Source of the DNA: Liolophura sinensis
Taxonomy: Eukaryota > Mollusca > Polyplacophora > Chitonida > Chitonidae
Direction: 5' to 3'
Assembly: GCF_032854445.1 (NCBI RefSeq)
Contig: NC_088302.1
Coordinates: forward strand, 20,843,788-20,907,787
Length of the DNA stretch: 64,000 bases
The notes below the pieces were generated by a model. That model saw only the letters and a list, made by a program, of their open reading frames with translations, ran no database searches and was not told the origin of the DNA. Position 1 is the first letter of the stretch; each line of letters begins with the position of its first letter. A program made the translations under genes and the position numbers. Shown in pieces: positions 1,862 through 41,200 of this stretch.

Positions 1862-3904
1862 TCAGGACAATTGCCACGGCCATTTTGGAACAGTATATTT
1901 GTCCAGCTTTATCATATTAGGCCTCTGATTATTGTGTCTGTCCATCATATCCTGAGACCTGTGATTATTGTGTCTGTCCATCATATCCTGAGACCTGTGA
2001 TTATTGTGTCTCTCCATCATATCCTGAGACCTGTGATTATTGTGTCTCTCCATCATATCCTGAGACCTGTGATCATTGTGTCTCTCCATCATATCCTGAG
2101 ACCTGTGATTATTGTGTCTCTCCATCATATCCTGGGACCTGTGATTATTGTGTCTCTCCATCATATCCTGAGACCTGTGATCATTGTGTCTCTCCATCAT
2201 ATCCTGGGACCTGTGATCATTGTGTCTCTCCATCATATCCTGAGACCTATGATTATTGTGTCTCTCCATCATATCCTGAGACCTGTGATCATTGTGTCTC
2301 TCCATCATATCCTGGGACCTGTGATCATTGTGTCTCTCCATCATATCCTGGGACCTGTGATCATTGTGTCTCTCCATCATATCCTGAGACTTCTGATCAT
2401 GTCTCTCCATCATGTCCTGGGACCTGTGATAATTGTGTCCGTCCATCATCTCCTGAGACCTGTGATTATTATGTCTCTCCATCATATCCTGGGACCTGTG
2501 ATTATTGTGTCTCTCCATCATGTCCTGGGACTTGTGATTATTGTGTCTCTCCATCATATCCTGGGAACTGTGATTATTGTATCTCTCCATCATATCCTGG
2601 GACCTGTGATCATTGTGTCTCTCCATCATATCCTGAGACCTGTGATTATTGTGTCTCTCCATCATATCCTGAGACCTGTGATTATTGTGTCTCTCCATCA
2701 TATCCTGGGACCTGTGATTATTGTGTCTCTCCATCATATCCTGGGACCTGTGATTATTGTGTCTCTCCATCATATCCTGGGACCTGTGATTATTGTGTCT
2801 CTCCATCATATCCTGGGACCTGTGATTATTGTGTCTCTCCATCATATCCTGGGACCTGTGATTATTGTGTCTCTCCATCATATCCTGGGACCTGTGATTA
2901 TTGTGTCTCTCCATCATATCCTGGGACCTGTGATTATTGTGTCTCTCCATCATATCCTGGGACCTGTGATTATTGTGTCTCTCCATCATATCCTGAGACC
3001 TGTGATTATTGTGTCTCTCCATCATATCCTGGGACCTGTGATTATTGTGTCTCTCCATCATATCCTGGGACCTGTGATTATTGTGTCTCTCCATCATATC
3101 CTGGGACCTGTGATCATTGTGTCTCTCCATCATATCCTGAGACCTGTGATTATTGTGTCTCTCCATCATATCCTGGGACCTGTGATTATTGTGTCTCTCC
3201 ATCATATCCTGGGACCTGTGATTATTGTGTCTCTCCATCATATCCTGGGACCTGTGATCATTGTGTCTCTCCATCATATCCTGGGACCTGTGATTATTAT
3301 GTCTCTCCATCATATCCTGAGACCTGTGAAAATTGTGTCCGTCCATCATCTCCTGAGACCTGTGATTATTGTGTCTCTCCATCATATCCTGAGACCTGTG
3401 ATTATTGTGTCTGTCCATCATACCCTGAGACCTTTGATTATTATGTCTCTCCATCATATCCTGAGACCTGTGATTATTGTGTCTCTCCATCATATCCTGG
3501 GACCTGTGATTATTGTGTCTCTCCATCATATCCTGGGACCTGTGATTATTGTGTCTCTCCATCATATCCTGAGACCTGTGATTATTGTGTCTCTCCATCA
3601 TATCCTGGGACCTGTGATTATTGTGTCTCTCCATCATATCCTGGGACCTGTGATTATTGTGTCTCTCCATCATATCCTGGGACCTGTGATCATTGTGTCT
3701 GTCCATCATACCCTGAGACCTTTGATTATTATGTCTCTCCATCATATCCTGAGACCTGTGATAATTGTGTCTGTCCATCATATCCTGAGACCTATGAATA
3801 TTGTGTCTGTCCATCATATCCTGAGACCTTTGATTATTGCCTTTGTCTGTCATATCCTGAGATCCTTGATTATTGTCTCTGTCCATCATATCCATCAGAA
3901 GCAC
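1862..3904 (-). CDS. Doubtful ORF across the minisatellite (12-residue repeats)
   Basis: The minus strand is open for 680 codons and reads as about 55 copies of RSQDMMERHNNH with short non-repeat ends. There is no signal peptide, no known domain and no visible promoter. The plus strand is also open for 697 codons (repeat PVIIVSLHHILG), so openness alone proves little: a 36-bp unit without stops stays open however often it is copied. In favour of the minus frame, several frequent variants are silent there (TCT/TCC Ser, GAT/GAC Asp, CAC/CAT His) but change residues in the plus frame. Most likely non-coding satellite; a disordered Met/His/Asn-rich repeat protein is the alternative. Confidence 0.2.
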   Translation of the reverse strand: MLLMDMMDRDNNQGSQDMTDKGNNQRSQDMMDRHNIHRSQDMMDRHNYHRSQDMMERHNNQRSQGMMDRHNDHRSQDMMERHNNHRSQDMMERHNNHRSQDMMERHNNHRSQDMMERHNNHRSQDMMERHNNHRSQDMMERHNNHRSQDMMERHNNQRSQGMMDRHNNHRSQDMMERHNNHRSQEMMDGHNFHRSQDMMERHNNHRSQDMMERHNDHRSQDMMERHNNHRSQDMMERHNNHRSQDMMERHNNHRSQDMMERHNDHRSQDMMERHNNHRSQDMMERHNNHRSQDMMERHNNHRSQDMMERHNNHRSQDMMERHNNHRSQDMMERHNNHRSQDMMERHNNHRSQDMMERHNNHRSQDMMERHNNHRSQDMMERHNNHRSQDMMERHNNHRSQDMMERHNNHRSQDMMERHNNHRSQDMMERHNDHRSQDMMERYNNHSSQDMMERHNNHKSQDMMERHNNHRSQDMMERHNNHRSQEMMDGHNYHRSQDMMERHDQKSQDMMERHNDHRSQDMMERHNDHRSQDMMERHNDHRSQDMMERHNNHRSQDMMERHNDHRSQDMMERHNDHRSQDMMERHNNHRSQDMMERHNNHRSQDMMERHNDHRSQDMMERHNNHRSQDMMERHNNHRSQDMMDRHNNHRSQDMMDRHNNQRPNMIKLDKYTVPKWPWQLS
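1915..3895. repeat. Minisatellite, 36-bp unit, about 55 copies
   Basis: The unit contains the phrase GTGTCTCTCCATCATATCC and repeats every 36 bp with few substitutions. At least one unit is 33 bp (near 2390), so even the length variant is a multiple of three. Copies at both edges are more diverged than those in the middle, as expected for expansion by unequal exchange. Larger blocks are duplicated: a variant carrying CATCTCCTGAGACC recurs 900 bp apart (2447 and 3347, 25 units), and one carrying TACCCTGAGACCTTTG recurs 288 bp apart (3421 and 3709, 8 units). Confidence 0.97.
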
Positions 3905-12992: not shown

Positions 12993-13248
12993 TGATTTAT
13001 TTATTTATTTATTTATTTGACTGGTGTTTTACGTGCGGTCGCTGCGAGGTCAAGTCCAGCTCATGCTAGCTTCCTCTCCGGCCGTACGTGGGAAGGTCTG
13101 CCAGCAATCTGCGGATGGCCGTGGGTTTCCCCCTGGCTCTGCCCGGTTTCCTTCCACCATAATGCTGGCCGCCGTCGTATAAGTGAAATATTCTCGAGTA
13201 CGACGCAAAACACCAATCAAATAAATAAATAAATAAATATCGTGACGA
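12993..13248 (+). mobile_element. SINE, family 1, with inverted tail at its 5' end
   Basis: The body from GCGGTCGCTGCGAGGTCAAG to the AAATAAATAAAT tail is in forward orientation, but the left edge starts with ATTTATTTATTTGACTGG and TGTTTTACG, which is the 3' end of the same family reversed. The element is therefore bounded by inverted copies of its own tail. Confidence 0.85.
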
Positions 13249-13419
13249 CGGGCAAATATAGGCCTACATGTGTCCAACACCAATCTGATTTTATGCAATC
13301 AGGAGATCGCTATATAAAATATTCTACCAGTTCTTATACGATTCGTATGGGGTACAAATTATAGTCACCGGTGCTTATTTCGATATTAGCGTCTTTGCCT
13401 CTATAGGCCTACCTTTTTT

Positions 13420-14107: not shown

Positions 14108-15036
14108 ATGGGATGCGGCACATCTAGTCAGTCTCAAAAGAAACCTAAGGTGGACCACGGTTTAGATGTACAGGATGTGAGTACTTGTCAAGTCTGTGCA
14201 TATTCTGTAACGTTCTTTTTGAGAATGCGACCCCGGAGATGTTTGGGAAAAAATCCATATTCGCTAATCAAATAAAATTTTCTTTATTTACCAAGAATAG
14301 CTGAAATTATTACCTTTCAGTGAATATCAGGCTAGTACCTGTACTATTTATAGTGTTAAAATGACTCTAAAGTTTGAAATATTTCTAAATTTTATGAAGT
14401 TTATTACCGATTTGGAATTGTAATGTGTACACACGAGACTTATTTTGTGAACGGTAAATATTGGAGCTATTCTAAAATAATGAAAGCGAGTGGTAATACT
14501 TGCATGTATATGTATATATTTCATTGTCACCTTTAATATTAACTGTTGTAATTAATTTGTAAGGCTTACTATAGCAATCAATCTAGTTTCAGGTGTGGTT
14601 TAACAACTTTTTTCTCTAACCGCGGACACCTTCTTTCATTTTATATCTCTGGTTAATTCTCATTTTCAGCTGACAGTTCCATGTACAGAACAAGGATATC
14701 CGCCACCATTGCCTCCTAAGGGCCGTAAAGCAGATATCTACAAGCCGAGTGATTTCAAAGAGATAGAAAATAATGCTATTAACGTGAGTCGTTCTAAGGC
14801 ATGCCTATTTTGAGAAAACTGTTATGGATTACAAGCCTTGTAACAAAGAGTGACAGTACATGTCTAGACATTGATTTGCTGATTTGTTTTGCTGATTTTG
14901 GTCAAGCAATGGCATGTACATGTACCTTTCACTTTGTCTTGACTGGCTGTACATGTGTCTATTTAAAATATCACACATAGACTATATTCACCGTAGGGAC
15001 ACACTAAAGATGAAAAAACATAACAAAAAAAATATA

Positions 15037-15099
<63 letters not shown>

Positions 15100-18000
15100 T
15101 AAATGACTATCTGGCTATCAAGACAACCTCGGAAATGGACAATTGTGAGTCGTGACGCATCGTTATCTGTGTATCTATGTATCCACAAAAAATTGAAACT
15201 TTATGGGAAAACAGTTGGTGCCATACCCCGGACACGAAATTATATCTATTTATATAGTATAAAAAGGGGAAAATGACGATATAGTAACCATGAAAACCAC
15301 GGAAATAAACAAATGCAAGTCGCAACACATCGTCATGTGTGTATGAAGATATTCACCAAATACTAAAACTCCACACAGAAAACAGTTGGAGTTATAGTCC
15401 ACACACGAAATCATATCTATTTATATAGTATATATAAGGAAAATGGTAAAAAGTAGTTACCATGACAACCGCAGAAATGAACAAATGTGAGTCCAGACAC
15501 ATCGTCATCAGTGTATCTATGTGTCTACCAAAAGTTAAAACTGTTAAAAAATTAAAAAAAGTTAAAAGTGGAAAACAAGTGGAGATATACTCCCGTTTGA
15601 TTCCAATATCAGACCAAAGAGGGTTAAAACTTATTTGCTCAAATATGGTCCGTAATATATTTTTTTTTCGACTTTTTCTTACAGGGAAAAACTGTAATGG
15701 GTATTTGAAAATATTTTTGTGCGGTGGGTATTTGGGACCAACTCTTGGGTCGGGTCACACCTAAGAGCTTAAAAGAGGAAGTTGTAGCTCCCTCGCTTGG
15801 CGTTTAGCATGAAGGGGATAGTGAAATGATTGGTTGATGGGTATCATTATAATGGCTTAAGTGGGGCACCTTACTTACCTTTGGTAAGTCGTCTCAGTGA
15901 CGCAGCACTAAATCAAAGAACGGTGGAAATCCGCCCTGCAACAGGGAGGCACATTACACCTACACGCACTCTAAGGACACCTTTGTCATGATATGACTGA
16001 AAAATGTTAAGCCTCTTAGTATATATCATCTTTGTTTAAGAATGTTCGAAGTAAGGATGTGATGCATGTCTAATAAATTTATTTGAATGTTAAATTGCTG
16101 TTTAAATCCAATTACCGTCATTTAATCTGAATCGTGAAAATATTTATGAATATATTAAAACTATAAATATGATCAAAATCCAGGTTGAGCATATCAGTTA
16201 GCCAAATTCTAGTTCAAATATATTTATTAAACATGTGTCATATTCTCATTTATGATTTTTTTTTTTTTTTTTTTTTTTGATTGGTGTTTTACGCCGTACT
16301 CAAGAATATTTCACTTATACGACGGCGGCCAGCATTATGGTGGGTGGAAACCGGGCAGAGCCCTGGGGAAACCCACGACCATCCGCAGGTTGCTGGCAGA
16401 CCTTCCCACGTACGGCGGGAGAGGAAGCCAGCATGAGCTGGTCTTGAACTCACAGCGACCGCATTGGTGAGAGGCTTCTGGGTCACTACGCTGCGCTAGC
16501 GCGCTAACTGACTGAGCCACGGAGGCCCCTCTCATTTACGAGATTATTACGCGAAGACAATCTGTACCAAGAGGTGGCCATATATACCCATCATACAAAA
16601 ATTATTTTGAAGTGTCATTTTCTTTTTTAAAAAAAATCTAAAACAATATTGAAGATCACATTTACATCCCACTTTCGCACTTTTACATGTACGTAATTTT
16701 TATGTTTTCTCGACCTTTAAATCGAAAACGAGGCTTAGTGTGCAGATTAACGTAATGGCGGGAGTAAAGTATAAGTTTGCACCTCAAGCCTAATTTATAA
16801 TAATATCAGTTCAATATTGCGCAACCCTATGTGAATAGAGTCTGTGGACAGATTCAGTACAAATACGAAATGGCTTCCACTTACATTGCATAATGGGGAC
16901 TAACATATTAGGGAGACAACTGATAGGTAGGAATTTCCTGATTTAAGCTTTGGAAACTCGGAAAGGAAATAATCCTGTACAGTCTGATTACACTTTTAAA
17001 CGCATACTGTGTGGTCCATTTGTACCTTTTTTTTTTAAACAAACAAGATTCTGTAAAGGCTAGATTCTTTGAAACCGACTACCACAAAAATATGTAAAAA
17101 AAAAAAAAATATCTACGGATCTTACTGTAAGCATTTGATTTATTTACTTATTTTATTGTACTTTAACGCCGGGTACATGACAATTTTTTTCTTTTGTGAT
17201 AGTGGTCGTACTGGTCAGTTGTATGGGAGTGCCTAGTAAACCACCGACCTTCGGTAGATACTATCGAACTTTCTGACCTATGTTGTACAAACGTGCACAC
17301 CATATTGGCAGAAGACAAGTGGTCTTCAGCTATCGTTAGAATGCACAAACGGCCGCACGAACGTCGTCTGTCGCTTATCACAAAAAACCCACAAGCAGTG
17401 AGAGGTGGGAAATCCACAAATTCCCTGCCCAAGGTTTGGTATTTGACTGTATTTATTTTGTTCAATGTCTTGTGTAAACATTTCATATGATGTATCAGTC
17501 CTATAAGTATTGTCCGATGTGTTTGAAATACAGATATATTATTATCATGGCCATTTTGTTAGTATTACCATACTCGCAGCAAACCACATTCGATAAAAAC
17601 TTAAGCGAATCCATATTGTCCATTTTTCTATCATAAAAATGGTTCCATTTTGACAGTTCAAAATGTGGTTGGACTTGTGACTGATTGTGGTTGTGTTGTG
17701 GTTGTGGTTCCGGCGCACAGCTGCAATATTTCGTTACTTACACCACAGAGCTGTCCCGAATAATATACGATAGTCATTATAGAGCCTACCCATAGTTGGT
17801 ATTTTTAATGTGTTATTTTAATATGATTTTAATATGAATCTTGCACAGTAATTAAGATGTTAATTAATTCAGATCCATTGCTTATTTTAGACGCCTGACA
17901 TCTTCCTAGACAGCTATGACGCCTTAATAGCACACCTCACAAGTGACGCACGAAATGACCTTCAGAAGGTCAGGGCGATATTCGTCTGGTTGGGCATTCA

Positions 18001-21000
18001 GAACAAAGGCGGTAAGAAAGGACCAAAAGCTGAAAATCCAGACACTCCGAGAGCCTATCTGCAACTGATCGACAAGAAACTGGGCAGCTATGCTTCAATG
18101 TTTGCCTTGATGTGTAGGTAAGACGTGCCCCAGGCCGTTGTTAGGTTAAAATCTAATCTCCAGGTTTTCATTTGTTCACTGGTGGAGAATGTTATGGATG
18201 GAACTGAAAGGCAAGAATCTCAATACGATCTAACTGTAATGTCTCAACAATCTTTTCTCGCAAATATTTAGTATTAATGTTTTCCAAGATTTAACTGAAT
18301 GCTAATTTAAAAAATGTACATAAATAAATAAATAACACGGATTATAATATTTAGAGTGGTATTCCTCCTACTTGTAGTCATTTGTGAAGTTGCATGATGA
18401 CAAATTCGTGTTTATATTCAGAGGAAGAAGAAGCAAGTCTATATTCATATTCTGATCCGATTTTACTTTTACTTTAGGAAAGCGAAGGTGCCTTGTGTCA
18501 TTATCAGAGGCATTGGCAAAAGTGCTTCTTATGAAGTCGGGGACACAGACTTAGACCATCTTAAAAACAACTGGAATGCCGTTTTTGTAGCTGGTAACTG
18601 GAGATTCGTTCATACATTGTGGGCGTACATGTCGCTTCTGGGTCACAGAAGTGGAAACTGGACTCTGGTGGAAACAGGTGGAGTAAAGACTCAAGAGAAA
18701 CAAGAAGCATCTGTTGGTCAGTTAAACTTTCAGCTAAATGATTATTGGTTTTTGACTGACCCAGAAAAGCTGTTCATAAGCTGTTTCCCAGACAACCCAA
18801 AATGGCAGCTGTTGGAGAGAACTCGATCTCTTCAGGAGTTCAAGGAAGTCCCTTTCGTCAGGAAAGCTTTTCATGCTTTGGGTCTCAAGATAAAGTCAGT
18901 GCAGAAATGTTTACTTCAAGCGGAGAAAGGAGAAGCCAGTATAACCATAGAGGTCCCGAAGATTCATTCAGGCAAAATAAAGTTAACGTACGACTTGTTT
19001 TTCAAGGATTCAGAGGCGTCCGAGAACACGGTGGACAATATTCAATTGGATCGATTTGTCTTCATGAATTACCGAAAGCAAGAAGTGGAGTTTTCTATCC
19101 GCTTTCCGGTTGTTGGTATCTACAAAATTTCAATATTCGGACACGATATTGAGGAGAACAGTGAGACGATGGACTGGTTGTGTGATTTCCGCATTGATTG
19201 TAGCTCTGCAAAGGAAGAGTGCCAGCCATTACCGGACTGTCCGGATATCGGATGGGGACCGAGTGTGGAGGCCCAGCAGGTGGGAATGGAAGCCATCACC
19301 CATCAAGAGGGACTCATCCCGCTCAAGAGACGTCAGAAGTTAGATATACAGTTCAAACTTAACAGGCCGACAGAGCTGAGGTGCGAAATGCTGCACAATA
19401 AAATTCAGAAGTCTGACCTGAAAGACTTCGTGACAAGCGAAGTGACGCAGAAAAAAGCCAGTGTTAAGGTGAAAAAGTTGCCGGAGCCCGGAGAGTACGC
19501 TTTAAAACTCAACTTCCGACAGGCGGTATCCGGGAAAGAATTCGTTAATGTGGTCAATTATTTGATTATTAATCCACCAGAGGAGCTACCACCTCCGCCA
19601 AAGCCAAAAGAACCAAGACGAGAGGTATGACATTATACACTCTGAAAAATCTTTCTGCGTAAATCATTTGCGCATCTCTTTTCGATAAAGTTTTTTTTTT
19701 TTTTGGTCTAAAAAAAATGTACACCTGCCATATACAGATATACTCACCTCTGAATCTGAAATTTAACGAAATAGCATGTGACAAATGTAGGTGATCTGAT
19801 GCAAATGCATGTAGTTTAGGATTCCCCTTGATCAAAAAACCTTTCTTTCCAGAACGCACGATGTGTGCTGGTTAGGTTTTGCTGGATGATAGAAGTTATC
19901 AGCACTTCCACAAGCTTCATAAGCGGGTGTGTCGGCGTAGATTATTGATCCATAAATGACTTGTGTATGTGTGTGTCTTATTTCATGTCACATGTGTTTT
20001 GTTTTCCTCCAAGAATCCGTTTCTCCAAAACATTCGTAAGGTTCTGAAAGACGCCATCGAAGGAAACGATATGGAACAAATCGAGCGCGCAATGGCGGCA
20101 TTCCTGAAACAAAAACTGGAGGATAAGGGTGAATTGGCCAGTGCTCAGAAAAGACTAGAATATCTGCAGCTGAAGAAAGGTAATATACCTGACCTTTAGG
20201 AGACAAAATCATTGAGAATTGGAAGATAAACGTTTGCAGGAATGACAGTAGTTACGCTCAAATTACTAAAATTATCATTGATATTAGAATTTGATTGATT
20301 AGTAGTAGCCTGAGCATTGATTCCAAGTGCAGGCAGAATTTGTATTTACACATGCACTTAGTTTGTCTGATCGATACTTATGATTTGTAATTTTTTTCAT
20401 TCTAGCTTTGATTTGATGGAGGCGGCGAAATTATGATATTGCGGCAGTAAGTCTATGTATTCTAAAATAGCCATGTTCTAAGCCTGTTTTCGCTGATAAC
20501 AGTTCCAACGATCGACACGATGATTTCTCTTGACAGCCCTCCACGATGCAATAAGCAGACGCCACGTGGACGTCCTCCGTGTTGCCATCGATAACGCCAG
20601 AAACTCAGAGCACGTTGACGAGCTCAGTCCGCGTCCTCTGAAGGAAGCCGAACGCTTACACGCTCACCTGAAGAGTGTTGACAAGTCCCGTCATCCCATT
20701 CTCAAGCTCAACCAAAGAACGATATCAGAGATTGCTAGTTACAAGCAACCAATTGCGTTAATCAAGGATGTAATGACAAGCACTTTTCTCCTGCTCGGTG
20801 AAAAGAAGCAAATGTTAGAGGTAAAGAATGAATGTTACTGAATGATTATGGTTTAATGCCACATTGTCAGTATTGCAGCCATATCGCCGCGGTAGATATA
20901 CAGCAACATACTAGTTTTCGTTTATTTAATAAAGAATATTTCTTTATCAAGTTGTCAGGTTACAGAGAGAGGGAAACCTAACAAAACCCAGATGAAACTG

Positions 21001-23634
21001 CGACTCTACATCATACCTGACATCCCCGTGAACTAACGCTGCAGACAAATCAGCTGGAGCTGGATTTCATTGCTCAAATGCCGATGTCCTGCAGCGAGAA
21101 AAACTTGTGCCACCTTGTGGTCCCATGTTTAGCTCTTATTCGTATATACAATATCCGTTGATGATGATGATGATCGTCGGTTATTGTAATGTTTTACTAT
21201 ATGGCGGGGATTACGTCCGTAGATGGTGATGATGAAGATGTGTTTACCTGAATTACAGTTTCACATTATGTGATGATAATAATTGTGATGATCGCTTACT
21301 ATAAGTGTTTACCCTAAATTTCATTGTATTCTGTTTTATTTGATGATGGTGATAATTATGGATTACTTTAGAATTTAGAGGAATTCGAGCAATAGATGTC
21401 ATTGTGATAATGCTTAGAATTGTTATTTTTTCCATTTTAGAAATGGACTTATATCCAGACCTTATTGAGGAAAACTGGTAAATACAACGTTAAGCGGAGA
21501 ATCCTGGTATTCGATACCCAAAACCTTCTGGATGGTACAATCGAGATGGCCAGTCATTTCCTGGCTGGTCACAGTATGGCTGAGGTTAGTGAGTGCAGCG
21601 CTGGAGCAGGGACCTTCTTCAAATGGGTAACCATCATCACTTATCTATACTCATTCTCACCAGAAAATCAGATGTAAAATCAATGGCGTAAAATCTATGG
21701 AGATCATGGAAATTACAAGTTTCCTCGCTACGCAGCTGTTAAGCTCGCGGTACTTCGAGCTTCCACTCTAACCGTTCTTATAGTCAGTTAATATATTTGT
21801 GTCTCAAAACAATTACAAAGTGATTAATCTTTCATATGCTGTGGCATAGTCATATACGGATGATGAACGTGATATCTACTTATAGTGTGTATTTATCTTA
21901 GCGCAGTATACAGCTAGAGGTCATTTCCACTTGAATATCAGTGTTTCGTAACTTCTTTCATTAATCACGTCGACTTACTGAATTTTAAATGTCGAGAACC
22001 TGGTTTCCGAAAACAAGTAAACGGGAGAAATGGACTATAAACCACGTGTATTTTGTATGAGTATAGAATGCGTAACCTGGCGCTTGAATTGATTGATTGA
22101 CTTTAACTTCGCGCCATACTCTGTGAAAGCAACCGTGTGCAAAAACTACACAAGATGTGTACCACTGGGACTCATTAATTGTGACAAATTTGCACACGAA
22201 CATTAATGTGTACTTTGAGTATATCATATTTGTATACCTATACTTTCAGTGTGTACCAAGTTGTGTACCTCTGATACCCATCTTGTTTACATAGCGAGCT
22301 ACACTAACAGTTGTGTACGGATTTGCTTTTGAGAGTACTCAAGAACATGACGCGTATAGAATGGCGGTCAGTTTTATGGGTTGAGGAAACTAGAGATCCC
22401 GGGGTAAACCACTGAACTTTTGCAAGTTGGTGTATAAAGGGAATGACAGTTGAAACCTCTGTGAAAGAAACACGGATATCCACGACGATCAGGGGAGGGA
22501 TGGGTCAGGAGCAAATTTCCCAGTGACGAAAGCCCTTAGCTTCATACGACGGTAAAACTTCGTTCAAATGACCTGACACGAAGACCTTTACATGTAGTTA
22601 ATGTATAAAACTTGAAACGACTTATTATGCAAGAAACTTGCATGCGTGGAATCAGGTCTTGAAACTACACGTGTACTATAGCCCATGATTTGAGACCTTT
22701 ATTACGCCAGGTAAACACTTACGAGAGGTGGCACCTTTCAGCGGTCTATAAATTCCTTGTTTGTTGCTTGGGATCATAAAAACCGGTATCGTGCGATGAC
22801 TGAGTTTGCCTTTATGATATTGGATATTGATATAGGTGGAGACAGTGCCTTTGATCTGAGGGGGAACAATGTTTACGATATAATCCATGCTTAACCAGAG
22901 AATTGCATGAGTCAAGAACAACTTTCCTCTTAAGATAAGTTGAGACCGCTTGCATGAAGTGAGCGTAGGCCAAGTTGGTTGTAACTGCCATGGCGACATA
23001 TGTTGAAAACGATCGCTGTGTGAAAGGTTCCCTACCCTGTGAGTCCCAATGTTAAATCGTTGCCCAACTCATGACAATCCGGATCACCAGGTTTTCGCTA
23101 TTTTTGCTACATCTTCCGCCCTTAAAATGCCACAAAGATGTAAAATGAAATTAAAAAGTTGCGTCTAGTGCTGAGAAAGGATACGTTATACAGCGAAGAA
23201 AATATCATATTTTAGTTACCGGTACAGTCAGTTTTTGGCGCAAACTCCTATTTTTGTTGGTGAAATAAATACATCTTAAACTGAGGAATGTTTTGCGTGA
23301 TATTAAAAAAAATGGATTGAAAAACAGTATCCGGATGTTGCAACAGAAACAAGGCCAAAATTTTGCATTGTACTGTAGTTGCTTTATTATCTGTCAGATT
23401 CAAACTGAGTATTAACTACCTAATTCCACACATTTACTAACATATTTTTAATCTGTCGTTTCTGTACAACAGAGCTCCGGTATAATAAACGAAGCGGGGT
23501 ATGGGAAGGGAAGTGTACAGAAGGAATCGAGTGAAGACACAGACGCAGGAGAGGCAGCGGACAACACATCTCGTGACGTCACACCGGCTGACGTCACGTC
23601 ATCTGGTGTGGAAGAGTCACCAGATGATAATTAA
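14108..23634 (+). CDS. KY/hillarin-type transglutaminase-like pseudoenzyme with dynein-stalk-like C-terminus
   Basis: Eight exons, read by eye: 14108-14176, 14670-14783, 17891-18117, 18478-19624, 20014-20179, 20537-20820, 21441-21626, 23473-23634. All junctions are GT-AG and phases agree, giving 784 residues. The start MGCGTSS fits N-myristoylation at Gly2 and palmitoylation at Cys3. Residues about 62-190 are a transglutaminase/KY core, followed by KY-family beta domains (FLTDPEKLF, DNPKWQLLE, DIGWGPS) to about 519. The catalytic Cys, His and Asp positions appear to be Leu125, Asn167 and His182, so peptidase or transglutaminase activity is not expected. Residues 520-731 include LNQRTISEI, LLLGE, FD and a final AGTFFKW, resembling the microtubule-binding stalk of dynein heavy chain. 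An acidic Ser/Thr tail follows. KY proteins act in cytoskeletal scaffolding; the role here is inferred. The hillarin/KY assignment is firm, the stalk assignment moderate. Confidence 0.85.
15036..15097. repeat. TA microsatellite
   Basis: About 30 uninterrupted TA dinucleotides inside intron 2 of the KY-like gene. Confidence 0.97.
15115..15545. repeat. Tandem triplication, about 171-bp unit
   Basis: Three copies begin near 15121, 15292 and 15464, each with GANAACCNCNGAAAT, a CATCGT phrase, AAAACAGTTGG and ATATCTATTTATATAGTAT. They lie in intron 2 of the KY-like gene, next to the TA tract. Copies differ at perhaps one base in five by eye, so this is not recent. Confidence 0.85.
15790..16020 (+). 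mobile_element. SINE-like element ending in CATGATATGACTGAAAAATG
   Basis: GGTAAGTCGTCTCAGTGACG, GCCCTGCAACAGGGAGGCAC, ACACCTACACGCACTC and a terminal ATGATATGACTGAAAAATGTTAAG resemble the conserved central and 3' domain of tRNA SINEs that I associate with bivalves (compare 49565-49900). Family call is from memory. Confidence 0.55.
16253..16529 (-). mobile_element. SINE, family 1, full length with target-site duplication
   Basis: The best-preserved copy in the window. On the minus strand it begins GGGGCCTCCGTGGCTCAGTC (A box region), has a B box-like GTGAGTTCAAGACC, then GTACGTGGGAAGGTCTGCC, GGTCGTGGGTTTCCC, GCCGCCGTCGTATAAG, GAAATATTCTTGAGTACGGC and an A-rich tail. A 9-bp duplication, TCTCATTTA, flanks it at 16244-16252 and 16530-16538. 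It sits inside intron 2 of the KY-like gene and splits an older repeat. Confidence 0.95.
17130..17440 (-). mobile_element. SINE-like element, family 2
   Basis: TTTATTTACTTATTTTATTG tail side, GTAAACCACCGACCTTCGG, CATATTGGCAGAAGACAAG, TGGTCTTCAGC and GGGAAATCCACAAATTCCC match other family 2 copies at 5430-5765 and 59380-59615. Located in intron 2 of the KY-like gene. Confidence 0.6.
22320..22600 (-). mobile_element. SINE-like element, family 2, degraded
   Basis: GAATGGCGGTCAGTTTTATGG, GTTGAGGAAACTAGAG and GGTAAACCACTGAAC match the family 2 body. Located in the last intron of the KY-like gene. Confidence 0.5.
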
Positions 23635-28175: not shown

Positions 28176-30266
28176 CTACAGATGAGATCCATCTGCCTGA
28201 TTAGAATCTGATTCAGGCCTTGAGGTGTAGACTACGTCGCCTTTAACCTTGGCAATGGCCTTCTTGGTCTGAAAATAAATGAAAATTTAGTAAAACATGA
28301 GATTAAAAAGTGCGGTTTATCAACCAGAGGTAGAGATTTTAACTTTAATTTTTATTTTTTATTTAACTCGTGCTTAATGCCGTATACTTAAGAATTGTTA
28401 ACTTACATAAGATGTCAGCCTGATATATACGTGGAAAGGGTATCAAACTTCGCCAGGTATCTGACAAGTAACTTGACTTAAATTGGCAACCCAACCAGTA
28501 AAAAATTCTGGAGTATGGTATACCATGTATTTGTTCTTCTCTTGCAAAATGGCTGGTAACTCCAGCATTATAGAGTTCATTGCCTCTGACGGCTAATTTC
28601 AGCACAGTAGATCTGATACTTTTTCGCGGCTTATTAACCAAAAACTAAGGAAAATGAACCATATAAATAGCTTGTATTTGAAGAGGGAATAATAGCAAAT
28701 AAAGAATTAATGCAAAACCACAATGGCGTAGACAACGCTTGAACTTCCCATGTGTGAAACTGACGGAGGAATATGTATACTCATCGGGTTTAAGGCGACA
28801 GTATAGCCGAAGCGTCATGGTCTGTCTGACAAGAACCAATGTGGACAGATATGAAATAGTACTAGAACACGTAACTTAGGATTTTATAGACTATAGAGAT
28901 CCAGATAAAGAAGGCTGGTCTGTCTGACAGAGCCAATGTGGACAGACGTGATGCAGGACTTTAAAACTTATAGTATTTCAAGGAGTATATAGATTTGCCC
29001 AGATAAAGTAGGCTGCACAGCCGAAGCTGGCTTGTCTGACAGAGTCGTTGTGGACAAATTTGAGGTAGTATTGAAACACGTAGCTAAGGATTCTATGGAC
29101 TTACCCAGATAAAGAGCCGGAGCTGGGATGTCTGACAGAGTCAATGTGAACAGACATGAGATTGGATTTGAACACGCAGCTAAGGATTTTATAGATTTAC
29201 CCAGATAAAGAAGGCTGGTCTGTGACTGAATCAGTGTGGACAGACCTGAGGTAGGACTTCCAAACTTATCGTCTTTCATGAAGTATGTAGATTTACCCAG
29301 ATATAGAAGGCTGCACAGTCGATGCTGTCTCGTCTGAGAGAGTCATTGTGGACAAAGTGGAGGTAGGATTGAAACAAGTAGCTAAGGATTCTTATAGACT
29401 TACCCAGATAAAGAAGACTGCTCAAGACATTGTGGACAAACCTGAGGTAGGATTGGAATAAGTAGCTAAAGATTTTATAGACTTACCCAGATATAGAAGG
29501 CTGCGCAGCCGATGCTGGCTCGTCTGACAGAGTCATTGTGGACAAAGTGGAGGTAGGATTGAAACAAGTAGCTAAGGATTCTTACAGACTTACCCAGATA
29601 AAGAAGACTGCTCAAGACGTTGTGGACAAACCTGAGGTAGGATTGGAATAAGTAGCTAAGGATTTTATAGGCTTACCCAGATATAGAAGGCTGCACAGCC
29701 GATGCTGGCCTGTCTGACAGAGTCAATGTGGACAAACTTGAGGTAGGAATCGGCTTTCTGAGCTATCTCCATCGGCACTTTGGTGGGATTGAAGTTCTCC
29801 ATTTTGAGTCGAACACTGGCGGTCCCTGTCCTACCCAAGACGCTTCGGATAAAATCCCAGTCCTAGAAAGTAGGATAATTAATTAAAATTTTGTGTTTAC
29901 AAATTAGGGCAAGATCAGAATTTATTCATCTGTTTCAGATTTCCCGTAATTGGTCGGGCAATGAAACTTGTCCGGTTTTAAGTCGTCGTAAATGTCTTAT
30001 AAAACTTTTAAAACGCAAGCACTTCCCTTCTAAATAAATTGTAGGTACCGTAATTTATTGAAAGGGATCGAAGTTCAGGTTTTCCGACTGTGTCCGTAGA
30101 ACACTCTTTTTGCATTGTTTCCATACAGCATGTATTTAATTATACATTTTATTTTTGTTCAACGTCATACTCATTAATTTCACTCTTATACCCGCATACT
30201 TTATAGATGAAAGAAACCAAGGTGGCCAACATAAACCACGTTACTGATGAACATTCCCCTAGTGAC

Positions 30267-30330
<64 letters not shown>

Positions 30331-32580
30331 ATAACGAAAGTTACACGAGGTAAACGGTTATATGCATGAGTAGCGTCGATCGTTTATTGCCACTAAGGCC
30401 CAGCGAACAAGGGGAGGGGAGGTTCTGCATATGCGTTGCCCATTGTTGGGTTCGATCTCCTAGCGATTAAAAAGTATGCACCTATACAGCTCGGTAACAG
30501 CCTGTCCCTACATATCATTTCATTTCTAGTTTAACGAAATGACTACAAACGATATAACTCACGTTATTTCGGAAGAGGGGTGCAAACAGACTCTGACGTT
30601 CTGACGTGCATGGTAACATAATAAATCAACTTTTCTGAAACTCTAATGAGATCATGGGATGCGCTGTGTTAAAGCAACCGGAAACATGATGTCGCATAAC
30701 TCGTACCCCAGACACGTATAGTCAAAAGGCAAACAAAGGTTCGAGTGAAGTAAGCGGAAACAGCTGTGTTCTCAGGTCGTAGAAATAACTCGCAGCTGAT
30801 TGATCAGAATTCATAATATGGCGGCACTTTCGAATCTCTCAATGTGTGCGATATTGCTTACTTTAAAGTGCGATATCCCAATTATGCAACATCACAAGAC
30901 AAAAAAAAAAGTGCATTTAAACTTCATGTGGGATCCTTTATCAATTCATATAGTTAATCTGGTGATGTCTTTTCTTTTAAACGTGTAGTCTAAACCAGAT
31001 CATGTAGCTTACGCACCTTCAAGTCCTCTAAGTTTTCACCGAGCATGAGAAAAGCTGCAATCATTGTGTTCTTGACCACGTCGGGTATTTTCGCGTAGGT
31101 CCTCAGCTCGGAAATTGTCCTCTGGTTCAAAAGTGACACCGCTTGGTTGAAACTGTTCAAGGACGACAACTCTTCACGGAGTTTCTTGGCTTTCCTCAGA
31201 GGGAATGGATCCAAGTCATACACGAATTTGGATTCGATGACTTCTGCTATGGCCTTATCCAATAGATCAACTCTTCGTCTGTGAATAGCATCAAATAAGC
31301 CTAGAAAAACAGACGTTAATAGAAAATAGAGATTTGATGGCCAGATAAAGAATTTTTTATTCAGACAGGCAGTTCAGTTTATTTCTTAATCGTTGTAAAT
31401 AATGTAATTTACGGTAAATGGCCCATATTTACGCCCCAAAAGTTTATTTTTAGATGAAAAAATCGTAAGGTATTACCTCTGGTGCTGAAGGTAACATTTT
31501 CCCTCCACAGGGTATGATCCTACCATTCAAACAAACCTCAAAACACCTTTCTACGATCAACAGAACTCCCAGAATCAACAGCGTGTGCTATATAGCCACT
31601 GACGGAATTCCAGGTGGTTTAGGTACACGCAATAATATAAAGGCTCATCTACATTTCGGAAACTAAATCTGTAAACTACGTTTTATTAATATACTTTTCA
31701 CAAATTTTTCGATCGGTGGAAGGTGACAAGAGTATTCTCAATAACAGCACAAATAAAAAAACACAAACAAAAACGAATATCCCCAAAAAATATATAGCAT
31801 CCAGAATCATTCCACAAATAACTTTAAATTAACGTTGAAGAAAAACGTCATTTGAGTATAATCTACCTTTCTTCAGATTCAACATCTCAATTTTTTCCCT
31901 GGCCCGTGTTAAATCTCCCTTGTCTTCAAGGCGGTTTTTCTCGAATGCCCGGATGCAATCGTCGATGCTCTTCGGGTCGTCCTTCTCACACGCCTCGACC
32001 AGCTGCTGGCGTATCCCTCGACGGAAGCCGTTCTGTAACATGTTCCAGACGTGGACTTAAAAAGTCTTGTCTCTATTCTTTTTCCATGTTTACGTAAGTA
32101 CGCTTGCATGGATGTACTTATGTTTTTCTTTGATTCCTGAATTGGATGTTAGCATTATCATATTAACTGTTTCCTTTTTCTAGCATGTTATCGCCACACT
32201 ATGGCTGAAATACCTCAAATCAGTTGTTAAACCCAAATAAGAGGCTTTCTTTTATTCCACCCAAAGCATGACCGCTGCGTACGAACATTAGATTCCAGTA
32301 TTAGACTGAAGTCCGTGCAAAAATCAACACTAATCCGTTCATCATTCATTTAAGGAAAAGCAACCACTAAACAAAGGGCTTGGAAAATGGAATAAAGTTT
32401 TAACTCCTGACCAGTTGACTGATTCTGTTTCGGTACTATGTACAGGTGGAGAGGTTTGTAAAACAACCGATGCAGGGTGGAGGTTTTACTTTGCATGAGC
32501 AAAGCTGTCATATACATGAAATAACCTGACCCTCAAAAAAATAATATGTTAAATTAAACAGAAAATCTGATTGATCCTAT

Positions 32581-32611
<31 letters not shown>

Positions 32612-34440
32612 TTTGATTAGTGTTTTACGCCGTACTCAAGAATATTTCAATTACACGACGTCGACTAGCATTAGGATGGGAGGAAACCGGGCTGAGTGGT
32701 CCTAGAATGTATTCTGCTACTGAACATAATTACTCTGTTATTCTATTAGACTAACAGAATATTCTGTTGAATACGAAAGGTTATTGTGTTATATAACAGA
32801 ATACATTCTAACATTAGTCAGACAAAAATCTATTAATATGTTGCACAAAACGTACGCTCAACCCCATTCTTAGACAAATACTCTCAAAACAATAATCTGT
32901 TAAATTTAACAGAAAGTCTGATGCTAGAATGTATTCTGTCATCGCAGAAGATTATTCTGTTAAAATATTATAGCACACAAATTCTGTTAGTTCAGTACAA
33001 AGATTGTATTAGACTAACAGGATATTATGTTGAATTCGGCACTTTATTATGTTATAATAACATAATACATTATAACAGACTTTCTGTTAAAATAAACAGG
33101 TCATTTTTTTAGTGTGATCTCCATATTGACGGGGCCGCGGAGGCAATGAGCGGTCGACGGCGCTCTTTCGTGTGGTCTTACATGCAGTTAGCTTAAGAAT
33201 ACAAGTTCGCCTTCGAGACCGCAAGTGCAGCATTTGTCACGAGAGAGTTCATGCACCAGACACTTGCCAAAGGTTGGTACATGCATGGTTTACTCCGCGT
33301 ACTCCGGTTTCCTCCACTCATAACCGTGATCGCATATAAAAGTACAAAATTCCAGAGTATGGTGTTCAGAAAGAATAAGATAGGTAAATAATTTTAAATT
33401 ACTGATCTACATTCTTGAAGCCATTGTATAGATCTACTCACCTCTAAAGAATTAGGGGGTATAGGTGACCTTTTGGCCAGTGGATCTTTGATGGGTTTCC
33501 ATGCCTTAGCTTTCTTTGTCGTATTGGCAAAGGCCGACTTCTCTGGGCACAGGTAAACACCGGTCATTCTTCTCCTGTGGGGTCGGGAACCGGCGGCCTT
33601 GATTGGCGGCGGATCAGCCTCCATCTCACTGTGTAGTCTGCATACACAACAGAACGATGGTTTTAGTAAACGTGTACCGTTAAAAGTGAACTCGGATTTC
33701 CCACTTTGTTTTACAATTTGTTGTACTCATCCATTTACTGGTCATCCTGTGAAGTGGAATCTGAAGTTAGGTTTCTGTAGAAAAGTTTCATGACTCTCAT
33801 TCACAATACGAATGTTTATTTAATTCAAACAAGATGAAATACCTTTTCCATTGTTACTTTATTATACATGCATTTCACGTTATATACATATACGACAGCA
33901 GTTATAAACTGAACCACATCAAATCCTTTAGTTCGCAGGTTGAGTAATGAAAAAACGACGAGGAACAATTAATTCTTGAAAAAGAATCGACTGTAAAATG
34001 ATTCTTTTGTTGTAAAACTCGATGTAAAATGTTCAATTGTATGTTTTATCTTACTAAGAATGTTTGTCAGGTGTTGTACCAGTTCTGGCCCTCAAATGCT
34101 CTCAAGAAACACGCCAAAACATAAAAATGTTTTCGCCGGGCTCTGACTTATTTTCTTTACCTATACCCCTCTTTGATATATTTCTATTTTTGTATAAAGC
34201 CAAGATCAAGAATTTTTAATCATACATCCAAACGCCCTTAGATGAGTAAAATATTCACAAATTAACACTAAATAACAGCACGTAAATATGTAGGAACTTC
34301 CTTGAGAATGAAGTTTGTGTATAGGTTGAGAGAGAGTTAAATACGAATACATTCACTTTTCACCGTGGCCCTATTCAAAGAGATGTAAGGAGCACTTACT
34401 TCCTGGTACCCTGCTCTGAAGATGCACTGTAGTCGTTCAT
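28176..34440 (-). CDS. Dynein-stalk-like domain protein, paralogue of the KY-like gene's C-terminus
   Basis: Six exons on the minus strand in order: 34440-34400, 33637-33442, 32032-31867, 31300-31017, 29862-29677, 28268-28176. Junctions are GT-AG with matching phases; 321 residues. Residues 1-79 (start MNDYSASSEQ, basic and proline-rich) are not recognised. Residues 80-291 match residues 520-731 of the KY-like protein: shared LEDKG, LLNQRTISE, LGE, TG and a closing AAFYIW. The three module exons are 166, 284 and 186 nt in both genes. I see about 24 identical residues of 55 in the first module exon. The pattern I-SE--Y, LLGE, F-(D/N) and A--F--W resembles the dynein heavy chain microtubule-binding stalk tip, without any motor domain. 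No KY domain is present between the N-terminal exons and the module. Function is inferred as microtubule-related at best. Confidence 0.8.
28815..29670 (-). repeat. About nine partial copies of the 3' end of the penultimate exon
   Basis: Inside the last intron of the stalk-only gene, segments beginning near 28818, 28889, 28985, 29098, 29196, 29291, 29398, 29481 and 29580 each repeat the end of the exon at 29677-29862 plus its splice donor (plus-strand phrase TTACCCAGATANAGAAG...GTCTGACAGAGTCANTGTGG). In the 29250-29670 part, a long and a short copy alternate with a period of about 190 bp. The copies at about 29291 and 29481 keep about 22 codons open up to the donor; that at 29481 reads SVRRASIGCAAFYIW. 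Confidence 0.85.
30267..30324. repeat. TA microsatellite
   Basis: About 28 TA dinucleotides in the intron between 31017 and 29862. Confidence 0.97.
32530..32846. mobile_element. MITE, CACTC family, split by a SINE
   Basis: Starts CCTCAAAAAAATAATATG, continues to GAAAATCTGATTGATCC, is interrupted by the SINE at 32577-32699, and resumes at TCCTAGAATGTATTCTG. Rich in the palindromic phrase AACAGAATATTCTGTT. Its neighbour at 32881-33114 is the uninterrupted relative. Confidence 0.75.
32577..32699 (-). mobile_element. SINE, family 1, truncated, inserted in a MITE
   Basis: Long ATTTATTTATTT tail, GATTAGTGTTTTACGCCG, TACTCAAGAATATTTC, GGGAGGAAACCGGGCTGAG, then stops. A short near-duplication, GATCCT and GGTCCT, borders it. 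Confidence 0.85.
32881..33114. mobile_element. MITE, CACTC family
   Basis: Terminal inverted repeats of about 60 bp: the left end CTCTCAAAACAATAATCTG and TTAAATTTAACAGAAAGTCTG pairs with the right end CAGACTTTCTGTTAAAATAA and TTTTTTTAGTG. No coding capacity. Same family as 50899-51125. Confidence 0.8.
33180..33370 (+). mobile_element. SINE-like element, family 2, 3' part
   Basis: CACTTGCCAAAGGTTGG, GGTTTACTCCGCGTACTCC, GGTTTCCTCCACTCATAACC, then CATATAAAAGTACAAAATTC. In the first or second intron region of the stalk-only gene. Confidence 0.6.
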
Positions 34441-38224: not shown

Positions 38225-41200
38225 ATGCTTAACTTTCTTTTCGGACGTGATATGGAATCTGTAGCTGAAAAGAAGAAATTGGACAAGAGAATTACCATCA
38301 ATGTAGGAGGGCAGAGGCACGAGACTTGGGCCAGTACCCTTGAAAGGCTGCCTGGGACGCGCCTTGCCCTGTTGGCTAGCCTTCTTCAAGGAGACGAGAG
38401 TTGGGATGAGGACCATAATGAATACTTCTTTGACAGACATCCGGGCGCTTTTGCAACCATCATCCATTTCTACCGCTCCGAGGAACTTCATCCCCAGGTG
38501 AACATCTGTGGAAATGTGATGAAAGGGGTGAGTACAGTTTTTTTAATCAGTTCAAATTTTGATACATGTGATCTTTGACCTTTGTCTATGTTGAATCGTG
38601 ACGCATTTTGACACTTGAGCTGTAAATCAATTTGGTAAATTTCGTTAAGGTAAAGTATACTTTGTCATTTTCCAGATAAATTCGGTGTCTAATTGCAATC
38701 GGACAGTAATTTGAAACTTTCTGTCACAGAATTGTAAACTACGGTTTTATGATATGGCCTTGCTATTTGGTGAATTGCCTAAGTGTGAGTACCGAACAAG
38801 TTCGGTACATAATGATATCGTCATCTTCATATCGAGCCGTAATATCTCACTTTGTGAATGCGATTTTTGTACATTTGCGTTTAAAATGTTTCATGATTGG
38901 ATGTATTACTGCCGGTATGTCATTAAATCCCATTCTTTCAAATTTTGGGGACCTTTGTGGCCGAGTGGTTAGCGTGCCAGCGCGGCGCAATGACGCAGGA
39001 GCCTCTCACTAATAGAGCCGCTATGAGTGCAAGTCCAGCTCATTCTGGCTTTCTTTCCGGGAGTACGTGGCAAGGACGTGGCTCTGCCCAGTTTCCACCC
39101 ACAATAATGCTGGCAGACCTCGCATAAGTGAAATATTCTTGACTACGGCGTAAAACACCAATCAAGTAAATAACTAAATAATTTAAAATTTCCCTACACT
39201 TTAACGTTGTACTCAAGCCCTTGACTAGGAAACTTGTTACAGTTACTTATTGGCGTTTTACATGTGTTTCACTACAGAATAATAAATAAAAAAGGCGCTT
39301 TGCTTTCCAAGGAAATCTGTGTAGCTGCATGTAGCTCTATGATCTGGTGGCTGTGTATACGGAAGCAGTCATTGTTTGATGTTGACGTGGATTGATGTTC
39401 ACACGTTTCTGATGTTTATTGACAAGCACAAAGTGATTATTTTACCATCGATTTGCCATGAAACAACTAGATCCTCAGTCATATTATGGCCAGTAATTTT
39501 CACAGCCTTTGTTAATCAAAGCCTCTTAGCCATTGTAGCCTTGTATATAGTTTTATTGCCATGCTTCTCGTGGTAAGCATGAACGCTTAGTCCCGGATGT
39601 ACCTATGGCAACTGATGAAAACTTTCATTGAAATGTTTTTGTCAAAGACAAAGTTTCCAGAAATTAGTTGTAAGAATTTCCTTGCGAGAAGTTTATAAAG
39701 GTATAGCACACATTGTATGTTCTTAATATAAGAGACATATATATTATACTGGGTAATATAAGAGACGTATATATTATACTGGGCAAACCGATGTAATGCA
39801 TAGGAATTGTCTATTTAACACGCTCAAAGAATTTATGCTCTCAGTCAGTCGGTAGGTCCGTGGTATGGGTTGACAGAGATGTTCCTAGAAATCTCGTCGT
39901 AACGAATGTATAATTACCCATTTTTCTGTCTCTTCAGGCTTGTATCGCGTTCTTGTAAGTCAGACTCACATTATGTATGCATTAAATATTCGAACCTCTA
40001 TAAAACATTGTATATCCATTTTTGAAAAGTTATGATATATAAAGCTGTTTTTGAATTTCGACAGGAAGAATGCTGGGTAGAACACTAGTTACTGGTATTC
40101 CAGCTCTAGACTCGGTATTGTCACACTGAAAAACGTTTCAAAGATTCGTAAACTGTTTTATTTGAATATAAGTTGCATATAATGGTCGAACTGATTATAT
40201 ATTAATGAAACACTTATCCTGAACAAACGAATTAGAAAAAAATAAATGTTTTTGCACTAAATGTTTTAACAGCGGAATCGAATGAAACGATTTTACACTA
40301 GCATTTTCTTGTCCTTTACTCAGATAAAGTAAGGGATAGAGTGTTCGGCTGAACTGCTAATTGACTTTTAAGAACAGATATGTCACGCGGCAAACATGTT
40401 TATATTCCTTTTTTTTTGAAAACCTTGCTTTATTAAACATATTTTTTTCTTTTCATTTATCTATTGTTACTTCAAACATAATTTTAATCATGTAATGTAC
40501 ACTCCAAAAACTGAAATGTTACAAATATAACATTCATAATATTAACATTATGGCAGCGGTGAAGCATCGAACATTTGATTAACGCTTTGAATTTTGGAAA
40601 TTGAACTGTTAACAAAATTGTAAGAAAATGCTATGATTTGATACTGTCTTAATATCAACACCTTTATGTGTGATGTTCCACACATTCATTGATCATTTCA
40701 CTACAAATGTAAAAAAAATTTCTCCTTAACATTATGTTACAACGTGCATATTTTACAACATCTAAAATGTTACATTTCGTTATCATTTAGAATGTGTTGA
40801 CAGTTGCCTTTTAACAGTGTGCGATGTATAAAGGCTTTCCGTTGTTCCAAGCATTTGTTCTTTACAAACAGCAATCTATACGCCTGAAAACTCCAAGAGT
40901 CCACTCGAATCAATATTCAGTGCATATTTTTCATTCACGCTACGAGCTCCAAATAAGACTTATGCTTAGCATAGTAGGTCTTGTTTATTAAAAGAGGTCT
41001 GGTGGTTAAATGTGCTCGCCTTGTGTGGCCGCTTGAACAGACTGAAGTTCGTTGAAGATCATTTGTCCGTCTTCAATACTTTGTGCATATATGTACGTCA
41101 TTCGTGGGAAACATGTCAATGACTTGCTGAAGGTAGTTGGTTTACCCCAAACACTACGGTTCTGTTCTCTCATAAACCGGATCGAATAAAAAAAGAAAAC

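Follow-up and report, generated by a model that had tools for sequence, protein, structure and literature searches.

A dynein stalk-tip domain without its motor, found behind KY-like domains in the chiton Liolophura sinensis

Introduction

The ring of dynein shifts CC1 of the stalk relative to CC2, and the affinity of the head is thereby raised or lowered. To our knowledge, no dynein microtubule-binding domain (MTBD) has been described outside a dynein heavy chain, and none turned up among the papers listed by searches of the open PMC library, outside which most subscription journals lie. The second family of interest here, KY, has a leech relative named hillarin, and we know of no vertebrate KY with a stalk tail of the kind reported below. 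In the available part of one report, vertebrate KY is presented as a transglutaminase-like Z-disc protein with conserved putative catalytic residues and no activity shown, which shares a network with filamin C; co-option of its domain for protein contacts is considered possible (PMC6078408). KY and the dynein heavy chain figure as separate proteins in the portion available of a further article (PMC9562170), and an excerpt of a study on another chiton includes a protein named hillarin among mineralised-tooth proteins (PMC6351634).

Here, we analyse a 64-kb stretch of the genome of Liolophura sinensis (hereafter the window, to which coordinates refer unless a contig is named), which carries two genes with a diverged dynein stalk tip. 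In one of them, the stalk tip lies behind a KY protein.

Results

Gene 1 was modelled on the plus strand (14108-23634) as eight coding exons yielding 784 residues, with GT-AG at all internal boundaries and matching phases. The first coding exon (14108..14176) opens at an ATG, reads MGCGTSSQSQKKPK... and ends at a GTGAGT donor in phase 0; its MGC start is a possible myristoylation/palmitoylation signal. Exon 2 (14670..14783; acceptor AG, donor GTGAGT, phase 0) contains a proline-rich stretch. The transglutaminase-like domain begins in exon 3 (17891..18117), with Leu at the usual Cys position, and is completed in exon 4 (18478..19624), which also holds the KY Ig-like domain(s) and a terminal proline-rich linker, NPPEELPPPPKPKEPRRE, before a phase-0 donor. 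Residues 1-519 make up a KY protein with its MGC start, transglutaminase-like stretch and KY Ig-like part. Residues 520-731, hereafter the module, coincide exactly with the next three exons (166, 284 and 186 bases), which are entered and left in phase 0. Module exon 1 (20014..20179; acceptor AG, entered in phase 0) is probably helical, and a related exon was found in copies 2, 3 and 4. Module exon 2 (20537..20820) encodes a helical stretch, a CC1-like helix and MTBD H1 (TISEIASYKQP...LLLGE), and module exon 3 (21441..21626) the H2-H6 region, its final TGG being directly followed by GTA. The likely last exon (23473..23634; acceptor AG, phase 0), predicted from sequence, adds an acidic tail of 53 residues and a TAA stop. 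The initial annotation had placed a dynein-stalk-like module at residues 520-731 (20014..21626); this gene model confirms both ranges, and all the phrases on which the annotation relied (LNQRTISEI-SYK-P, VM----LLLGE, W--I--LL-KTG, FD and A-TFFKW) are present in gene 1.

A second copy of the module lies on the minus strand at 32032-29677, where open frames and tblastn gave the same three exons. Its protein is 36% identical to the gene 1 module across 213 residues without a gap, and the intron phases are equal. The gene 2 model comprises 303 residues without KY, its splice boundaries being GT-AG. A likely first coding exon (33442..33624; MEADPPPIKAAG...NSLE, donor GTGAGT in phase 0), which had no match in a Pfam scan, precedes module exon 1 (31867..32032; 43% identity to gene 1, GT-AG), module exon 2 (31017..31300; LNQRTISELRTYAKIP...LMLGE) and module exon 3 (29677..29862; DWDFIRSVLG...ASIGCAAFYIW). 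The likely last exon (28176..28268; TKKAIAKVKG...GSHL, then TAG; acceptor AG, phase 0) is again predicted from sequence. On the same strand, the 3' half of module exon 3 of gene 2 recurs in tandem arrays with periods of 96 and 190 (29019-29748), whose units include the splice donor (...CAAFYIW followed by GTAAG) and form extra exon-like copies within the intron.

Elsewhere in the window, a 36-base unit is repeated about 55 times at 1922-3893 with several frames open, and a 71-base unit about 25 times at 41886-43652. By eye, frames on the plus strand at 38225-53516 resemble a voltage-gated potassium channel, with a tetramerisation domain and a TVGYGD filter. Frames reading RTQEYFTYTTAASIMVGGNRAEP belong to a dispersed repeat (e.g. 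13050-13298, 16231-16535 and 50095-50307), which has several copies in the window and others at further loci and looks like a transposable element.

The module belongs to a family in this genome. Used as a genome query, copy 1 hit nine loci with 17 matches, and the copy at 32.63 Mb of contig C7 hit the same nine with 18; the family counts at least nine loci, as only the best candidates were scored. C8 carries six of them (gene 1, gene 2, and 20.83 (copy 3), 35.63, 47.11 and 53.12 Mb), C7 two (32.63 and 36.06 Mb) and C9 one (14.28 Mb). An alignment of the nine cores spans 121 columns and has no gaps, save for two residues absent at the start of one row, which was trimmed there owing to a frame break. 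Across the nine copies, 27 of the 27 splice sites flanking module exons 2 and 3 are canonical, and they share a single phase. Over 212 codons, gene 1 and copy 3 differ at 75, 51 and 134 first, second and third codon positions, respectively; the corresponding figures are 101, 87 and 130 for gene 1 versus gene 2, and 112, 73 and 139 for gene 2 versus copy 3. The excess of third-position changes between gene 1 and copy 3 points to constraint on the module protein. In the copy at C7 36.06 Mb, the frame of module exon 2 is broken by one base within an A run; an assembly error could explain this, and so could decay. Relatives outside this genome were sought in viral contigs with the two-copy alignment (262 stretches fitting the pattern, 0 confirmed) and with one protein as query (5 stretches, 0 confirmed), and in a genome-contig collection without animal genomes (217 stretches, 0 confirmed).

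Searched alone against the PDB, the gene 1 module had dynein in five of its six matches at E<=10 (best E 0.015), whilst the 12 matches of the gene 2 module were all dynein chains or constructs (best E 2.3e-4). A profile of these two copies, compared with 177,635 PDB sequences, returned 30 matches at E<=10; 29 of them fell on the MTBD of dynein (E down to 3.1e-6) and the only other one had an E of 1.3. With the nine-copy profile, the best 60 of 68 matches were all dynein chains or constructs (best E 1.4e-10), dynein status being judged by name or, for a few generically named entries (most of which also matched the DNAH6 tip), by length, and the alignment to dynein runs from CC1 to the closing Trp. 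One of these matches is labelled as a radial spoke protein, yet it is 4,583 residues long. Since the window copy is weak alone, the dynein case rests on its paralogues.

Profile-to-profile comparison agrees with these searches. The nine copies aligned by hhalign with five dynein tips (four kinds, two being DNAH6) at a probability of 99.1 and a score of 102.9, and the score was 94.8 without the window copies and 93.7 with the window copies alone. As controls, the nine-copy alignment was shuffled by columns 200 times, with no score above 21.3, and reversed, with a score of 18.3. Shuffles of 7-column blocks (200 as well) reached a score of 49.7 and a probability of 95.3, because short motifs survive in them; the hhalign probability is therefore not to be trusted by itself. 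In the reverse direction, the dynein-only profile of the five tips was run against 2,788 open frames of at least 40 residues, drawn from the window and from seven regions chosen because they contain copies. Module exon 2 of all nine copies came out on top, at ranks 1-9 (E 1.9e-8 to 0.0028; gene 2 rank 2, E 1.4e-7; gene 1 rank 6, E 1.3e-5) and six of the nine module exons 3 took ranks 10-15 (E 0.055 to 2.3; gene 2 rank 11, E 0.096; gene 1 rank 14, E 1.6, weak alone), the best unrelated frame among the matches listed having an E of 2.5. Five copies outscore gene 1 with this profile, one of which reads AEIRSYQNPPEVVHTVM...FLLLG.

The initial annotation had proposed a profile match as a check, and it was obtained in part: dynein matches are significant with the two- and nine-copy profiles, but in a Pfam scan the dynein stalk family PF12777 matched neither window copy. 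Among the nine members, five match PF12777 at E<=10 and none reaches its gathering cut-off of 24 bits; the best, the copy at C8 35.63 Mb (E 0.0013, 18.3 bits), spans only CC1-H1. AlphaFold models of module pieces, covering single exons only, had low confidence (pLDDT 49.5 and 55.4). On the whole of these sequence comparisons, we regard the homology of residues 520-731 of gene 1 to the dynein MTBD as secure, and the view that the module is a diverged stalk-tip domain without the motor is upheld. No AAA or dynein motor family emerged when the KY part, the two modules and the first exon of gene 2 were scanned with Pfam. A long returning coil CC2 is absent from both window gene models, which end 53 (gene 1) and 30 (gene 2) residues past the Trp.

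By tblastn, KY lies upstream of the module on the same strand in six of the nine copies, i.e. gene 1, those at 20.83, 35.63 and 47.11 Mb of C8, 36.06 Mb of C7 and 14.28 Mb of C9. In these six loci on three contigs, the open frames put the KY-to-module distance at about 0.4 to 6 kb. Six KY queries detected no KY at E<=0.01 upstream of gene 2, C8 53.12 Mb and C7 32.63 Mb within flanks of about 32, 17 and 15 kb, respectively. Gene 1 and copy 3 both have a phase-0 donor on the KY side. Directly behind its donor, gene 1 has an in-frame TGA (gtatga), so that a KY-only form ending in REV and a stop is possible. Between KY and the module of gene 1 (19625-20013), there is no AATAAA or ATTAAA polyadenylation hexamer, and no ATG occurs in the frame of module exon 1 from the last stop ahead of it (19957-19959) up to the exon.

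Two of the loci without KY in the flanks searched have other neighbours. At C7:32.62-32.64 Mb, the stalk module stands behind an EF-hand-like frame (PF13405, E 0.01, 16 bits, cut-off 25) and is followed by a basic, coil-like frame, which may be another architecture. At C8:53.11-53.12 Mb, it stands behind a frame with MGCGSSSPK and a long low-complexity stretch.

The KY part of gene 1 matches the Pfam family PF23265 (Ig-like_KY) in two stretches with an E of 4.2e-48; together with the exon model, this bears out the earlier proposal of a KY domain with an MGC start ahead of the module. The transglutaminase core (PF01841) is matched at E 0.0023 and 18.6 bits, below the cut-off of 23. In a weak match (E 0.037) to the transglutaminase-like chain of PDB 9crn, the places of the Cys, His and Asp triad are occupied in gene 1 by L, N and H. 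Compared by eye, the six KY-stalk genes have all lost the His place and three of them keep the Asp place; in the four genes whose Cys exon was seen, that place is lost too (4/4). The transglutaminase-like domain of gene 1 thus seems, from its residues, to have lost its catalytic triad; taken together with what is reported for vertebrate KY, a scaffold role is the natural reading. The best PDB match of this KY part (17891-19624) is FAP246 of 7n6g, a weak one (E 0.013). FAP246 is, we believe, an axonemal central-apparatus protein, so the match is a possible hint that KY-like domains have ciliary kinship.

We take the numbering of the published tubulin contacts to be that of yeast dynein, E3378 (mouse) to be a further contact position, and R3382 to be the counterpart of yeast R3201. 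According to the available part of one structural report, dynein-tubulin salt bridges involve K3117, E3122 and R3124 (H1), R3152 and R3159 (H3) and R3201 (H6) (PMC7042235); K3299 and R3342 are named as dynein contacts in the available portions of two (PMC7042235, PMC6629372). The mouse equivalents of the six, counted on the 3j1t chain, are K3299, E3304, R3306, about 3334, R3342 and R3382. In five dynein chains (two of them DNAH6), charge is kept in 5/5 at K3299, E3304, R3306, E3378 and R3382, to which the comparison was confined; the two H3 places were left out because their charge is not kept across these chains. In the nine module copies, charge type is retained in 0/9 at K3299, 9/9 at E3304, 7/9 at R3306, 7/9 at E3378 and 0/9 at R3382. 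At these positions in the same order, the window copy of gene 1 has Q, E, A, A and E (one of five kept) and copy 2, that of gene 2, has Q, E, R, D and Q (three of five kept). A basic residue is found one place past K3299 in six of the nine copies and an Arg one place ahead of R3382 also in six of nine; charge may therefore have moved rather than vanished. From this pattern, we conclude that the stalk head is kept and that its classical grip would be weakened, most strongly in the window copy, which probably has a partner other than the canonical dynein site on tubulin. The initial annotation had suggested a membrane-anchored KY scaffold with a microtubule-binding tail. The KY part with its MGC start and the stalk head support one half of that suggestion, but microtubule binding is its weak step, since the contact positions are mostly replaced in the window copy.

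Discussion

The reading that we favour, and consider fairly probable, is that a motor-less stalk head serves as a docking domain on a pseudo-transglutaminase scaffold that is probably membrane-anchored. A cassette of three exons and 212 residues, bounded on either side by phase-0 introns in the two window genes, would encode a helical stretch and then a domain descended from the stalk tip of a dynein heavy chain (CC1 end and H1-H6). In gene 1, a single transcript would join, in this order, an MGC start (probable lipid anchor), the transglutaminase-like and KY Ig-like domains, a proline linker, the stalk head and an acidic tail; in gene 2, the same cassette would be part of a small protein without KY. 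The head would sit at the end of the scaffold opposite to the one that is probably lipid-anchored and would dock there constitutively, and its partner could be either tubulin, which is possible, or a new one. As neither a ring nor a long CC2 was found in the window gene models, the affinity of the head would not be cycled by ATP.

The closest competitor to this docking domain is a head that still binds microtubules and makes the protein a static membrane-to-microtubule tether. Homology of the module to the MTBD speaks for such a tether, as do the E3304 equivalent present in every copy, the frequent basic and acidic residues at R3306 and E3378, the three contact positions retained by copy 2 and the basic residues next to K3299 and R3382. 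However, no copy has a basic residue at the K3299 or R3382 places themselves, which are charged in all five dynein chains, and the window copy retains a single contact position out of five; we therefore judge the tether unlikely, though clearly ahead of the other alternatives. One of these would split gene 1 into two adjacent genes, KY and stalk module, fused only by a naive splice model. The TGA just past the KY donor, at which KY might stop, and the KY-less reading of gene 2 are in line with it, but the exon 1 frame without an ATG after its last stop, the stretch of 19625-20013 without a polyadenylation hexamer, the agreement between donor and acceptor phases and the recurrence of KY followed by module on one strand in six of nine loci on three contigs make such a split very unlikely.

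The remaining alternatives concern the module itself. It could be a decaying leftover of a dynein gene, as the frame break of the C7 36.06 Mb copy might suggest; this is highly improbable given that both window copies are open with canonical splice sites, that changes are biased towards third codon positions and that one exon layout is common to nine copies. A chance likeness between two helical, coiled-coil-type sequences would account for the weak score of the window sequence by itself and for block shuffles climbing to 49.7 and a probability of 95.3. Column shuffles and the reversed alignment stayed far lower (21.3 and 18.3), 29 of 30 PDB matches of the two-copy profile are dynein and the dynein-only profile ranks the module exons first, so that mere chance is scarcely credible. 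Beyond the docking domain that we favour for the window gene, a broader scenario is possible, although we hold it only tentatively and with more doubt than confidence: a dynein head would have turned into a free non-motor adaptor, moved between genes as a phase-0 cassette and, at no fewer than nine chiton loci, would link KY scaffolds anchored at the membrane with microtubules or some other filament, free of ATP control.

These findings matter for both families. A natural ringless stalk head offers a test of how the head behaves when nothing can switch it, and the KY-stalk family shows the recycling of a part of a motor. Besides, a molluscan protein of the KY/hillarin type gains a concrete domain whose partner can be sought.

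To conclude, the module resembles the dynein stalk and MTBD in the order and spacing of the CC1 end, E-I-[RK]-S, the PP turn, LLLG, W, F/D and the closing S...W, its best dynein matches being DNAH6, DNAH2 and DYNC1H1. Compared with dynein, it is longer by three to four residues in the H1-H2 interval and by three in the H2-H3 interval, and shorter by two before H6. Unlike a dynein heavy chain, the window gene models have neither an AAA ring nor a long CC2, and several tubulin contacts of the dynein MTBD are replaced in the module. With KY/hillarin (kyphoscoliosis peptidase), gene 1 shares the MGC start, the KY Ig-like domain and a putative transglutaminase-like stretch that scores below the PF01841 cut-off. 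It differs from them in its replaced catalytic triad places, as far as the weak alignment to 9crn tells, and in carrying an extra stalk cassette of 212 residues and a tail.
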